Below are positions 28,495 through 32,035 of a stretch of 46,133 nt of DNA, one piece after another; position 1 is the stretch's first letter; every line of letters begins with the position of its first letter. The stretch lies in assembly GCA_015711825.1 (NCBI GenBank), contig JACVJD010000007.1, forward strand, positions 1 through 46,133, written 5' to 3'. Position numbers and translations under genes: made by a program. The notes beneath the pieces were generated by a model, which ran no database searches, was not told where the DNA came from, and saw only the letters and a program-made list of their open reading frames with translations. Source of the DNA: Candidatus Solincola daggyaiensis (lineage in GTDB: Bacteria; Actinomycetota; Geothermincolia; Geothermincolales; RBG-13-55-18).

Positions 28495-29084
28495 CCCCAA
28501 GGCCGAGCGCGCAAGAGCTTAGCGGGAGAAACCTCTCAGGATCGGAAACGCGGGCCCTTCTCCCGGAAATGCCGGTAAAGAGGATGACGCGGCGGTGAGG
28601 GAAAAACCGGCGGTCGATGCGAAGGGGATATTCTCGAGCGCTCGCCGCAGGCGGAAAACCCGCGCGCTACGGAGAAGGGATAAAAAAAATAGAGACCGGA
28701 AAGTGGGCAGGCTTTCCGGTCGAGGCCAAAACTCACTCGGCGTAGATATTTTGGCAATTATTCTATCGGCGTTTTCCGGCCGGCACTTTAGACCTTTTTT
28801 GTCCCCATCTCCAACCCGTTTTTGCCCTCCCAGACCCCGCTTTGTCTCTCGGGAAGGGACCGGGAACGCGATGCGGCCGCATTGCCCGTGCGTCTCCGCG
28901 TTGTATTTACCCGGGCCGTGAAGACGGTCGGTCGACCGAAAGGCTGCGCGGTGGAATCGCGACCCATCGCTCCCGCCCGGGGAGGGCGACCTGTTGACCC
29001 GTTACTTTAATTTGATTTTGAAGCTCAAGGATCGCGTGCGGGAAGTCGATAAAGAGAGCGTACATTGAGAACAGCATATCCCTG
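28495..29084 (+). other. Long noncoding interval before the riboswitch
   Basis: About 590 bases with no supported gene. It includes a 10-bp hairpin next to an A8 tract (28684-28721), a pyrimidine-rich AT-richer stretch (28740-28850), and TTGACC at 28994-28999 without a good -10. A 192-codon minus-strand frame (28907-29485) runs through the riboswitch and is rejected. The riboswitch promoter must lie here but was not identified. Confidence 0.45.
28685..28721 (-). terminator. Intrinsic-terminator-like hairpin reading on the minus strand
   Basis: GACCGGAAAG (28694-28703) pairs perfectly with CTTTCCGGTC (28712-28721) across an 8-base loop. The A-rich run on the left (28683-28690) becomes a T tract on the minus strand, so termination is expected for leftward transcripts. 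On the plus strand no T tract follows. It would shield the sortase end from antisense transcription. Confidence 0.5.
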
Positions 29085-29180
29085 TAGGTGATAAAGGCAA
29101 ACTCTTCCGAAAGGAGAGGGCGCAAAGCCATGGGTCTAAGGCCGCGAAAGCGGTTATGATCGCCAGGCTGCCGCCTCGTA
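29085..29180 (+). promoter_or_regulatory. Cyclic di-GMP-I (GEMM) riboswitch aptamer
   Basis: The GEMM-I core is present in order. GGCAAA (29096-29101) leads into the P1b hairpin with a GAAA tetraloop (CTCTTCC-GAAA-GGAGAG). Then come GGGCGCAAAGCC (29118-29129), TGGGTCTAAGG, a second GC hairpin with a GAAA loop, and TTATGATCGCCAGG-CTGCCG closing the helix. CTAAGG and TATGAT form the expected tetraloop-receptor pair that docks the GAAA loop. It precedes a terminator hairpin and the CAP-repeat gene, so c-di-GMP should control that secreted protein. Confidence 0.9.
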
Positions 29181-29185
29181 AGCGA

Positions 29186-29220
29186 CGCCCTTTCCCTAGG
29201 AGGAAAGGGCGGTTCGTTTT
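29186..29220 (+). terminator. Expression-platform terminator of the riboswitch
   Basis: CGCCCTTTCC (29186-29195) and GGAAAGGGCG (29202-29211) form a perfect 10-bp stem around CTAGGA, followed by GTTCGTTTT. The T tract is imperfect. The stem lies 6 bases after the aptamer, so ligand binding can plausibly decide whether it forms. Whether c-di-GMP turns expression on or off cannot be read from sequence. Confidence 0.65.
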
Positions 29221-29273
29221 CAGGGGAACGGGAGAGTTGCCACCGGCCTCGGGGACAAAGGGAGAGGCTGACA

Positions 29274-31121
29274 ATGAAGGGGCTCACTCGGTGGCAGAAG
29301 GGCGCAACACCTCTACTCGTGATCGTCTTTCTCGCCCTCACCGTATCGATGCCGATGATCTTCCCGGCCGTGGGGACCGCGGGGGCGGTCAACGCCTCGG
29401 CCGGAGAGGCCCGCATGCTGGAACTGGTCAACCAGGCCCGTAACCAGGCGGGCCTTCCTTCCCTGTATGCGGAGCAACAGCTCACCGATTTCGCGCGCGC
29501 CTATTCCTCGGAGATGATGCAGTACGATTTCTTCGGGCACGTGTCGCCGGTCTCGGGTAACCTGCAGCAGCGCATCGCGGCGAGGGGCATCACGGGATGG
29601 ACCCTGGCGGGAGAGAACATCGCCAAGGCGCCCAGCGTGGACGTGGCCTTCGAGGCGCTCATGAACAGCCCGGGGCACAGGGAGAACATCCTGCGGCCCG
29701 AGTTCAACTGCATCGGGATAGGGGTGGTGGCGGAGGGGAATACCCTTTACATCACCCAGGAGTTCATGTGCTTCTCTCCCATTCCCGACAGCGCCGATAT
29801 GGGCGTCGCGTCGCCTCAGCCTGAAAACCCCTCTCCCACCCCGGCGCCTCCCGCGCCATCTGCCGACAGCTTCGACTCTTACCTTCTGCTTATGAACCCC
29901 AACCCGCGGGCGGCCCAGGTCAAGGTGGACTTCCAGGGCGAGGACGGGAGCAGCCGCGAGTTCACCTACACGGTGATGCCGGGAAGCCGCTTCACGGTGC
30001 CGGTGCGGGAAACGGTGGGGCGGGGTTCCTTCTCCACCCAGGTGGAGAGCGACCTCCCGGTGCTGGCGGAGCGCGCCATGTACTTCGACTACCAGGGCAG
30101 GCGCGGCGGCCATGACTCCATAGGCGCCGACGCCCCCTCCCGTACCTGGTTCTTCGCCGAGGGCTACACCGGGGATTCCTTCGATACCTGGATCCTGCTC
30201 CAGAACCCCAACGACGGCGAGGCGGAGGTGACCTTGAGCTTCATGCGTCCCGACGGGGCGGTTATCACCCGCCAGGTGAAGATCCTCCCCAGGCGCAGGC
30301 ACTCCGTGCACGTGGACGAGATACCGGGGCTGGAGGCGAGCGACGTCTCCACCCAGGTGACCGCGAGCCTCCCGGTGGTGGCGGAGCGCGCCATGTACTT
30401 CAATTACGCGGGCAAGGACGGCGGCCACGGCTCCATCGGGGCCAGCTCGCCCTCGCAGACCTGGTTCTTCGCCGAGGGCTACACCGGGGATTCCTTCGAT
30501 ACCTGGATCCTGCTCCAGAACCCCAACGACGCCGCTTCCACCGTGACCCTGAGGTTTATGAAGCCGGACGGCAGCGTGGTGGAGCGTCAGTTCAGCGTGC
30601 CGGGACGCCGCAGGCACTCCGTGCACGTGGACGAGATACCCGGTCTGGAGTCCACCGACGTCTCCACCTCGGTGACCGCCGATGTGCCCGTGGTGGCGGA
30701 GCGCGCCATGTACTTCGATTACCGGGGCAGGCGTGGAGGGCACGTTACGGTGGGAACGCCCGAGCCCGGGTGTTCCTGGTATCTGGCGGAGGGCTATACG
30801 GGAGGGGATTTCGACGCGTACGTGCTGCTGCAGAACCCGGGCGATGAGGCGGCGGTGGTGAAGGTCTGCTTTATGCGTTCCGACGGCCTGAAGGTGGAGC
30901 GTGAGGTGAGGATGGGGCCCCACGCCCGCCACACCATTCACGTGGACGAGGTGGAGAGCCTGGGGGACGCCGAGGTGAGCACCCAGGTCAGCTCGAGCTC
31001 GCCGGTGGTGGTGGAGCTGGCGCAATATTTCAACTATCGCGGCATGGCCGACGGAAACAACGCCATGGGGGCCAGAGAGCCCTCCACCTCGTGGTTCTTC
31101 GCGGAGGGATGCGTGGAATAG
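29274..31121 (+). CDS. Secreted CAP-domain protein with four tandem WFFAEG-type repeats
   Basis: A 615-aa exported protein. The signal peptide/anchor covers residues 1-38. A CAP/SCP domain (about 44-165) follows, with LELVNQARNQAGLPSL, FFGHVSP, AGENIAKA and MNSPGHRENIL, as in bacterial YkwD-type proteins. A Pro-rich linker (about 182-195) leads to four repeats of about 105 residues starting near 197, 302, 407 and 511. Each has FDxWILLQNPN, RRRHSVHVDEIPGLE, VVAERAMYFDYxG and a closing WFFAEGYTG. The chain stops right after a fifth SWFFAEGC, with no sorting signal. SD GGGAGAGG. Function is unknown; the repeats suggest surface binding. Expression lies behind a c-di-GMP riboswitch. Confidence 0.88.
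   Translation: MKGLTRWQKGATPLLVIVFLALTVSMPMIFPAVGTAGAVNASAGEARMLELVNQARNQAGLPSLYAEQQLTDFARAYSSEMMQYDFFGHVSPVSGNLQQRIAARGITGWTLAGENIAKAPSVDVAFEALMNSPGHRENILRPEFNCIGIGVVAEGNTLYITQEFMCFSPIPDSADMGVASPQPENPSPTPAPPAPSADSFDSYLLLMNPNPRAAQVKVDFQGEDGSSREFTYTVMPGSRFTVPVRETVGRGSFSTQVESDLPVLAERAMYFDYQGRRGGHDSIGADAPSRTWFFAEGYTGDSFDTWILLQNPNDGEAEVTLSFMRPDGAVITRQVKILPRRRHSVHVDEIPGLEASDVSTQVTASLPVVAERAMYFNYAGKDGGHGSIGASSPSQTWFFAEGYTGDSFDTWILLQNPNDAASTVTLRFMKPDGSVVERQFSVPGRRRHSVHVDEIPGLESTDVSTSVTADVPVVAERAMYFDYRGRRGGHVTVGTPEPGCSWYLAEGYTGGDFDAYVLLQNPGDEAAVVKVCFMRSDGLKVEREVRMGPHARHTIHVDEVESLGDAEVSTQVSSSSPVVVELAQYFNYRGMADGNNAMGAREPSTSWFFAEGCVE
30144..30531 (+). repeat. Identical 73-bp blocks, 315 bp apart, within the CAP-protein gene
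   Basis: Bases 30144-30216 and 30459-30531 are identical over 73 positions and encode TWFFAEGYTGDSFDTWILLQ plus following residues. The 315-bp offset equals one 105-codon repeat. A second near-identical block (GGCACTCCGTGCACGTGG) recurs at the same offset. Such identity, including synonymous sites, indicates recent duplication or gene conversion. Confidence 0.9.
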
Positions 31122-31142
31122 ACGGTTGAGGGACTTCATAAA

Positions 31143-31174
31143 GGAGGGGCGTCGGCGCGGCGCGGCGCCCCTCC
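31143..31174 (+). terminator. GC-rich hairpin after the CAP-protein gene
   Basis: GGAGGGGCG (31143-31151) pairs with CGCCCCTCC (31166-31174) across a 14-base GC-rich loop. It lies 21 bases after the stop. Only a short pyrimidine run (GGCTTTC) follows, so termination may be partial. Confidence 0.55.
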
Positions 31175-31320
31175 GGCTTTCGGCAAGCCCCGAGGCCGGC
31201 AGGCGCGAAAGAGCCCCCGCTCCTTTTGCTCTGGTTGTCGGCGTGGCCACAAGGCGGCGATCGCGGGGCCGGATGCCCTGCGGAAGAAGAGGACTCGATA
31301 TGTGAACAGGGACACGAGCT

Positions 31321-31349
31321 TTACATGGCTTCGCGCGCGTGTTACTGTT
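31321..31349 (+). promoter_or_regulatory. Promoter for rplU operon
   Basis: TTTACA (31321-31326), 17-base spacer, TACTGT (31344-31349), fitting the TANNNT -10 common in actinobacteria. The start point would leave a leader of about 28 bases with SD GGAGG (31375-31379). A TAAAAT at 31362-31367 is an alternative -10 but would leave almost no leader. Confidence 0.5.
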
Positions 31350-31384
31350 TGTTGCTGTGGTAAAATTAGCCCTGGAGGTATGCG

Positions 31385-31750
31385 ATGTTCGCAGTGATCG
31401 AGACGGGAGGAAAGCAGTACCGCGTGGAGCAGGGCTCGGTGATACGCATCGAGAAGCTCGACGTACCCGAGGGAGAATCCGTGGTGTTCGATAACGTGCT
31501 GCTGGCGGGCGAAGGCGGAGAGATCCTGGCGGGCACAGAGGCCGGCAAGGTGAAGGTCGAGGGCACGGTGATCAGGCACGGCAAGGGCAAGAAGATCATC
31601 GTCTTCAAGTACAAGCCCAAGAAGGGTTACCACCGCAAACGCGGCCACCGCCAGCTCTTCACCGAGGTGAGGGTGGAAAAGATCGCCGGAGCGCCCGGCG
31701 CCGGGGAGGCGGGAAAAAGCGGAAAAGCGGAGGAGGCCGGGGAAGGCTGA
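31385..31750 (+). CDS. rplU: 50S ribosomal protein L21
   Basis: Ribosomal protein bL21, 121 aa. The core [17 protein letters not shown] through [24 protein letters not shown] is complete. A C-terminal extension of about 20 Gly/Ala/Lys/Glu residues is beyond the usual 103-aa core. ATG with GGAGG 5 bases upstream. It leads the classic rplU-rpmA-obg operon. Confidence 0.97.
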
Positions 31751-31777
31751 TCCCTTGTGAGGGAGGAGTGATCAAGG

Positions 31778-32035
31778 ATGTCCAGTAAGAAAGGCGTGGG
31801 AAGCTCGCGCAACGGTCGCGACAGCCACTCCAAGAGGCTGGGGATAAAGAGCTACGGCGGGCAGTTCGTGAGCGGGGGCTCCATACTGGTGCGACAGTGC
31901 GGAACCAAGGTAAAGCCGGGCGACAACGTGGGGGTGGGCAAGGACTACACCCTTTACGCAAAGACGGACGGGTACGTGAGCTTCCGGCGCAGCGGAGACC
32001 GCCATATCGTGAGCGTGATGCCGGCGCGGGAATAG
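31778..32035 (+). CDS. rpmA: 50S ribosomal protein L27
   Basis: Ribosomal protein bL27, 85 aa, whose N-terminus reaches the peptidyl-transferase centre. The start [21 protein letters not shown] and [15 protein letters not shown] are canonical. There is no cleavable N-terminal extension of the Firmicutes type. It follows rplU by 27 bases with SD GGGAGGAG. Confidence 0.97.

Follow-up and report, generated by a model that had tools for sequence, protein, structure and literature searches.

A c-di-GMP-I riboswitch behind a putative WhiG-type promoter upstream of a CAP-DUF5719 gene in Candidatus Solincola daggyaiensis, a candidate for double control by c-di-GMP

The CAP-DUF5719 gene and its riboswitch

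The window analyzed here is the whole 46,133-nucleotide stretch of Candidatus Solincola daggyaiensis DNA, and the unit discussed lies on its plus strand (Table 1). It consists of a predicted promoter, a c-di-GMP-I riboswitch aptamer, a terminator-like hairpin and a single long gene; at one end it is flanked by an RNase E/G-type gene and its neighbor, and at the opposite end by rplU-rpmA-obgE. An L21-like sequence also lies 3' of the CAP-DUF5719 gene in five relatives.

Table 1. Features of the leader and regulated gene (window positions)
Feature	Position	Strand	Sequence or content	Basis
Flagellar/WhiG-type promoter, putative	29025-29052	+	TCAAGG-N14-GTCGATAA	Exact match; aligned in class loci
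Strand F	29079-29084	+	UCCCUG; pairs with G' in the predicted ligand-free fold	Covariation
c-di-GMP-I (GEMM-I) riboswitch aptamer	29086-29175	+		Rfam RF01051
Strand A	29096-29108	+	GGCAAACUCUUCC; J1/2 and P2 5' strand; alternative partner E	Invariant in 14 genomes
Strand B	29113-29122	+	GGAGAGGGCG; P2 3' strand and junction; alternative partner arm C (putative antiterminator)	Duplex tests, folding
Intrinsic-terminator-like hairpin	29186-29211	+	Arms C (29186-29195) and D (29202-29211)	T-rich tail to about 29220
Element E	29230-29241	+	GGGAGAGUUGCC; complementary to A, 3' of the terminator	Kept in 14/14 CAP leaders
Strand G'	29250-29255	+	CGGGGA; partner of F	Covariation
Likely Shine-Dalgarno sequence	29260-29267	+	GGGAGAGG	Read from sequence; 6 nt 5' of ATG
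CAP-DUF5719 gene	29274-31121	+	Signal-like N-terminal segment, CAP domain, four DUF5719-type repeats	Pfam, translation, AlphaFold2, Foldseek
Strand H	29289-29296	+	CGGUGGCA; codons 6-8; complement of the 3' half of E and possibly a translational arm	Conserved complementarity

The regulated gene encodes a protein of 615 amino acids in which residues 49-164 form a CAP domain (Pfam PF00188, 56.1 bits against a cut-off of 21.1, E 8e-15), and the protein also matches DUF5719 (PF18986, E 3e-20). The N-terminal part of its AlphaFold2 model (pLDDT 84) resembles the CAP proteins 4ifa and 4h0a in Foldseek searches, and single repeats resemble TM1070 (1nc7; TM 0.8 on target) and the Anabaena sensory rhodopsin transducer (2ii8, 2iia). 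A sequence-only reading of this locus had predicted a secreted CAP-repeat protein and called it an undescribed surface repeat protein. The CAP and repeat parts of that prediction are confirmed by Pfam, while "secreted" draws on the N-terminal sequence and the CAP family, and "surface" is a conjecture; the repeats fall in a known Pfam family, and the model resembles solved beta-sandwich proteins. The gene probably encodes a secreted envelope protein that is made at low c-di-GMP. Relatives carry many further genes with DUF5719-type repeats (dozens of loci, L023-L091), and in them such repeats look like an extracellular module in wide use. Codon 7 of the signal-like N terminus (29274-29297), a Trp codon (TGG), is unusually conserved, being present in 14 of 14 orthologues, and is perhaps kept for RNA pairing with element E.

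In the Rfam covariance scan of the window, RF01051 matches the plus strand at 29086-29175 with 76.0 bits (E 2.8e-13; the gathering score is 35 bits). The alignment spans model positions 1-87 of 87, its NC line marks zero non-standard pairs, and nothing is missing from the GEMM-I core blocks, the GAAA tetraloop or the consensus columns of the receptor. The c-di-GMP-I riboswitch had been recognized from the letters alone, with a covariance scan named as the check and a score without significance as the outcome that would speak against it; the scan gave the significant score above. Its identity as a c-di-GMP-I riboswitch is nearly certain, and it would be expected to bind this ligand. It is the only RF01051 copy in the 3.0-Mb genome (G000) and, taken alone, a new member of a well-known class.

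The riboswitch is present in 15 of 31 genomes of the class, 13 of them among the 15 of its own family and two more from the same order, and RF01051 was found in none of the 13 more distant class genomes. It lies 5' of the same CAP-DUF5719 gene in 14 genomes, namely all 13 riboswitch-bearing family genomes (this one included) and G014, and because the pairing is conserved in these 14 genomes, the regulatory link from riboswitch to CAP-repeat gene drawn earlier stands. The two riboswitch-free family genomes, one of which is only 62% complete, have no close CAP-DUF5719 orthologue either. Riboswitch copies in G014 and G016 lie 5' of type IV pilins, and G016 has a CAP relative that lacks the riboswitch. 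A second riboswitch in G022 (L016, G022:C158) has a promoter, a terminator and an E-like element and is followed by a glycosidase-like gene. Elsewhere in the phylum, in a sample made up of the best-scoring riboswitches and uncorrected for phylogeny, type IV pilins and CAP genes are the two commonest c-di-GMP-I targets (16 of 93 match the pilin N-methylation motif and 15 encode CAP proteins), followed by glycosyl hydrolases 26 and 16 and subtilases. Since 15 of these 93 sampled genes encode CAP proteins, CAP is a recurrent target and not a peculiarity of this lineage.

A putative WhiG-type promoter and an RsiG homologue

The putative promoter ends about 33 nt 5' of the aptamer, and transcription is predicted to start near 29058-29060. 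It fits 10 of the 12 positions of the flagellar/WhiG consensus (-35 TAAA; -10 GCCGATAA), which was taken from the paper that used it for Rubrobacter (PMC8325347), and the chance expectation for the promoter pattern in the window, with up to one mismatch, is 0.21 matches. An alignment of the upstream regions of the class loci shows a conserved TCAAGG/TAAAG-N-GYCGATAA element. When a promoter is called at 10 or more of 12 consensus matches within 15-140 nt 5' of the riboswitch, 15 of 17 class riboswitches have one, these loci sharing descent and being non-independent, as do 35 of 97 riboswitches from the rest of the phylum (best-scoring riboswitches, phylogeny uncorrected). The corresponding controls give 2 and 1 calls for the reverse complement (class and phylum, respectively), 1 and 1 for the reversed motif, 0 and 1 for the next 125 nt upstream, and 0 and 0 for a downstream stretch. 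In the phylum sample, 13 of the 15 CAP loci score at least 9, as do 14 of the 17 pilin loci and 22 of the remaining 65. A search for a sigma-70-type promoter found none within 28500-31800. A second WhiG-type site (TAAAGTGCCGGCCGGAAAACGCCGATAG, one mismatch to the search pattern) lies on the minus strand in the interval 28694-28790. No more than about 40 nt beyond it comes a terminator-like hairpin of 10 pairs that has a T-rich tail, and only a very short RNA would be expected from this site.

The genome encodes a WhiG-like sigma factor of the FliA/WhiG family (G000:C31:27758-28435; 297.8 bits against a cut-off of 189.6) in the gene order dprA-xerC-sigma-rpsB-tsf-pyrH-frr, the names being read from the translations; the order is presumably similar around Streptomyces whiG. 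A search with the motif E(X)3S(X)2R(X)3[QH](X)3D identified an RsiG homologue of 102 amino acids (EARVSYQRRVLHGKID; G000:C36:8731-9036), which carries the motif once, as E(X)3S(X)2R(X)3H(X)3D. Its only PDB matches are the RsiG chains 6pfj, 7lq4, 7lq2 and 7lq3 (E 2e-11 to 6e-10; 6pfj is filed as AmfC, i.e. Streptomyces RsiG), and no NCBIfam model matches it. RsiG requires c-di-GMP for WhiG binding, single-motif RsiGs are known from Rubrobacteria and Thermoleophilia, and type IV pili are the presumed target of the RsiG-WhiG switch in Rubrobacter (PMC8325347).

Within the class, RsiG is present in all but one of the 15 genomes of the family and also in G014 and G016, while no distant genome has it. 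This is nearly the distribution of the riboswitch; because these genomes form one order, a single gain or loss could explain the agreement. In the phylum sample of 396 genomes, 155 have the riboswitch, 223 have an RsiG-like match, of which some weaker ones may be chance matches or distant paralogues, and 133 have both (odds ratio 10, uncorrected for descent). The genome has eight GGDEF matches and seven matches to HD_5 (HD-GYP-type). Both domains occur in all 31 class genomes, and EAL phosphodiesterase domains were found in none of the 31, HD-GYP-type HD_5 domains standing in their place.

These findings suggest that c-di-GMP controls the CAP-DUF5719 gene twice, at initiation through WhiG and RsiG and again through attenuation by the riboswitch, and we consider such double control reasonably likely. 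A simpler explanation is that only the riboswitch responds, the aptamer attenuating the CAP gene while the flagellar-type sigma factor uses the promoter independently of c-di-GMP and RsiG is inactive here. The RsiG-WhiG binding in this lineage is itself a prediction. With flagellin in the genome, the WhiG-like sigma factor could be tied to flagella, and another sigma factor of the FliA/WhiG type (G000:C5, 219 bits) is present as well. This explanation nevertheless seems rather unlikely to us, given that the nine of 15 riboswitch-bearing class genomes in which flagellin was not detected all keep RsiG and that the promoter score is at least 10 of 12 at seven of their nine loci (only G023, at 9, and G016, at 8, fall short); the nearly equal distributions of RsiG and riboswitch in the class, and their co-occurrence in the phylum with its uncorrected odds ratio, also speak against it.

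Predicted terminator, antiterminator and downstream pairings in the leader

The hairpin at 29186-29211 (CGCCCTTTCC-CTAGGA-GGAAAGGGCG, followed by GTTCGTTTTC) has 10 pairs, in agreement with the 10-bp terminator stem previously described. Its T tract (29212-29221) is interrupted, and the near relatives L007 and L013 have T7. Thirteen of the 14 CAP leaders have the hairpin and one, L005 (G019), has lost it. Strand B can pair with arm C instead of completing P2, and the z scores of the B:C duplex relative to shuffles run from -2.3 to -5.7 across all 13 terminator-bearing leaders, as against +0.8 in the terminator-free L005. In folding predictions for growing ligand-free transcripts P2 forms first, B:C forms once C has been made, and C:D once D has been made; the probability that B:C displaces P2 is 0.90-1.0 in nine of 13 leaders, and B:C is weakly favored in two of the 13 (L010, 0.21; L011, 0.11). 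No covariation beyond column make-up was found for B:C, because this pairing is nearly invariant.

The P1 3' strand ends 5' of the terminator stem with zero overlap, and therefore bound ligand cannot block the terminator directly. Given this layout, and with B held in P2 by the ligand, arm C would be left to the terminator, an OFF logic like that of the Cd1 riboswitch. According to the duplex tests and folding, the leader has what characterizes an OFF riboswitch, a terminator together with an antiterminator that excludes it and is in competition with the ligand-bound aptamer, and it is probably a transcriptional OFF switch. Attenuation cannot be the whole story, since the L005 leader has no terminator.

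Further pairings are predicted downstream. The A:E duplex is worth -14 to -19 kcal/mol (z -2.2 to -4.3 relative to shuffles), and the bulged U of P2, present in 14 of 14 leaders, is paired in A:E. The folding model gives A:E a high probability in the full-length ligand-free RNA of 13 of 14 leaders, and the outer helix F:G', which extends A:E, covaries: for F:G' with A:E, 4 pairs are changed on both sides as compared with 0.8 +/- 0.8 in shuffles, and 1 of 500 shuffles reaches 4. Element E is made after the terminator and so cannot affect termination there; it may lock the read-through RNA out of the aptamer fold, or it may influence translation through strand H, which it would free or block. 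The L005 leader, in which E is kept and the terminator lost, is a naturally occurring case of one part of the expression platform without the other.

If translation were the main level of control, ligand would free E to pair with H and so close the start region, and the hairpin at 29186-29211 would be a weak terminator or spacer. The retention of E in L005, the conserved Trp codon, and the conserved complementarity of E and H, of which the distant L002 has an 11-bp version, fit this idea, which we nonetheless judge to be quite unlikely: only about half of the ligand-constrained folds contain E:H, and this pairing shows no covariation beyond column make-up, so that it rests, as B:C does, on conserved complementarity and folding. 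Masking of the Shine-Dalgarno sequence was also considered as the main mechanism and rejected, its accessibility showing no consistent difference between aptamer-forced and free folds. Less likely again is an ON switch, in which c-di-GMP binding would raise expression, so that the loop with RsiG would be incoherent. Cyclic-dinucleotide riboswitches of the ON type are known that have almost the same aptamer (PMC9262584), and one sampled locus, L144 (G215), where the riboswitch lies 5' of a chemoreceptor-like gene, has the ON layout, with the P1 3' strand inside the terminator; an ON switch is argued against here because the P1 3' strand does not overlap the terminator, and the competitor for arm C is strand B, which the ligand would keep in P2. 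That the ligand is 3',3'-cGAMP is very improbable: the c-di-GMP-I and cGAMP classes have a common fold and were formerly annotated together (PMC9262584), but the equivalent of G20, whose change to A is the one linked to cGAMP binding (PMC6274999), is a G before CAAA (29097, by hand-transferred numbering) in all 14 aligned loci, as for c-di-GMP.

Proposed double control by c-di-GMP

Taken as a whole, the locus is best read as a transcriptional OFF riboswitch behind a WhiG-type promoter, with c-di-GMP acting twice on the CAP-DUF5719 gene, and we lean toward this reading with some reserve. RNA polymerase carrying the WhiG-like sigma factor would start near 29058; in this proposal few starts would occur at high c-di-GMP because the RsiG homologue would then hold the sigma factor. 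In the transcripts that are made, the aptamer would fold, and c-di-GMP, if bound, would lock P1-P3 and keep strand B in P2. When there is no ligand, B would leave P2 and pair with C as it is made, and the polymerase would read through; when ligand is bound, C would be free for D and transcription would end near 29220. The pairings of this step are supported by conservation and folding. In the full-length RNA, F:G' and A:E would then form and dismantle the aptamer. Both layers would reduce expression at high c-di-GMP, which amounts to a coherent double repression.

The sequence-only reading is partly supported by this analysis; it included neither the WhiG-type promoter nor the RsiG gene nor the alternative pairings that hint at the mechanism and direction of the switch. 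A wider proposal, which in our view could go either way, is that throughout the Actinomycetota the c-di-GMP-I riboswitches belong with the c-di-GMP-dependent RsiG-WhiG sigma switch to one regulatory module for CAP, type IV pilin and other exported-protein genes, with a WhiG-type start followed by a c-di-GMP check in the leader RNA. If this is true, one messenger would have two readers on the same transcript, a protein and an RNA. The coupling would then help to account for the persistence of WhiG-type sigma factors in lineages with no detectable flagellin, would make CAP proteins a main c-di-GMP output in Actinomycetota, and would provide a directly testable double-gate design. No description of such a coupling was found in a search of open-access literature.

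Comparison with known systems

The encoded protein has the CAP domain in common with YkwD/SCP-type proteins such as 4ifa and 4h0a, but here this domain is N-terminal and followed by four beta-sandwich repeats, and the protein falls below the cut-off of TIGR02909, the YkwD sporulation subfamily (108.6 against 171 bits). The repeats match PF18986 and resemble the fold of TM1070 (1nc7) and the Anabaena sensory rhodopsin transducer (2ii8/2iia), and in contrast to these they occur as four tandem copies within a secreted-type protein.

With the Rubrobacter RsiG-WhiG system (PMC8325347) this locus and its genome have in common a WhiG-like sigma factor, a single-motif RsiG and flagellar-type promoters 5' of surface genes. 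It differs from that system, in whose published text the word riboswitch is absent, in having a c-di-GMP riboswitch in the leader transcribed from such a promoter. The leader itself is most like Cd1, the c-di-GMP-I riboswitch of Clostridioides difficile, a transcriptional OFF switch of flagellar genes in which the ligand-free antiterminator dismantles the aptamer (PMC9262584). Both have a c-di-GMP-I aptamer followed by a separate terminator, and here too an antiterminator is predicted to dismantle the aptamer when there is no ligand. In contrast to Cd1, the target here is a CAP-repeat protein gene, the promoter itself is of the flagellar/WhiG type, and an extra conserved element lies 3' of the terminator.
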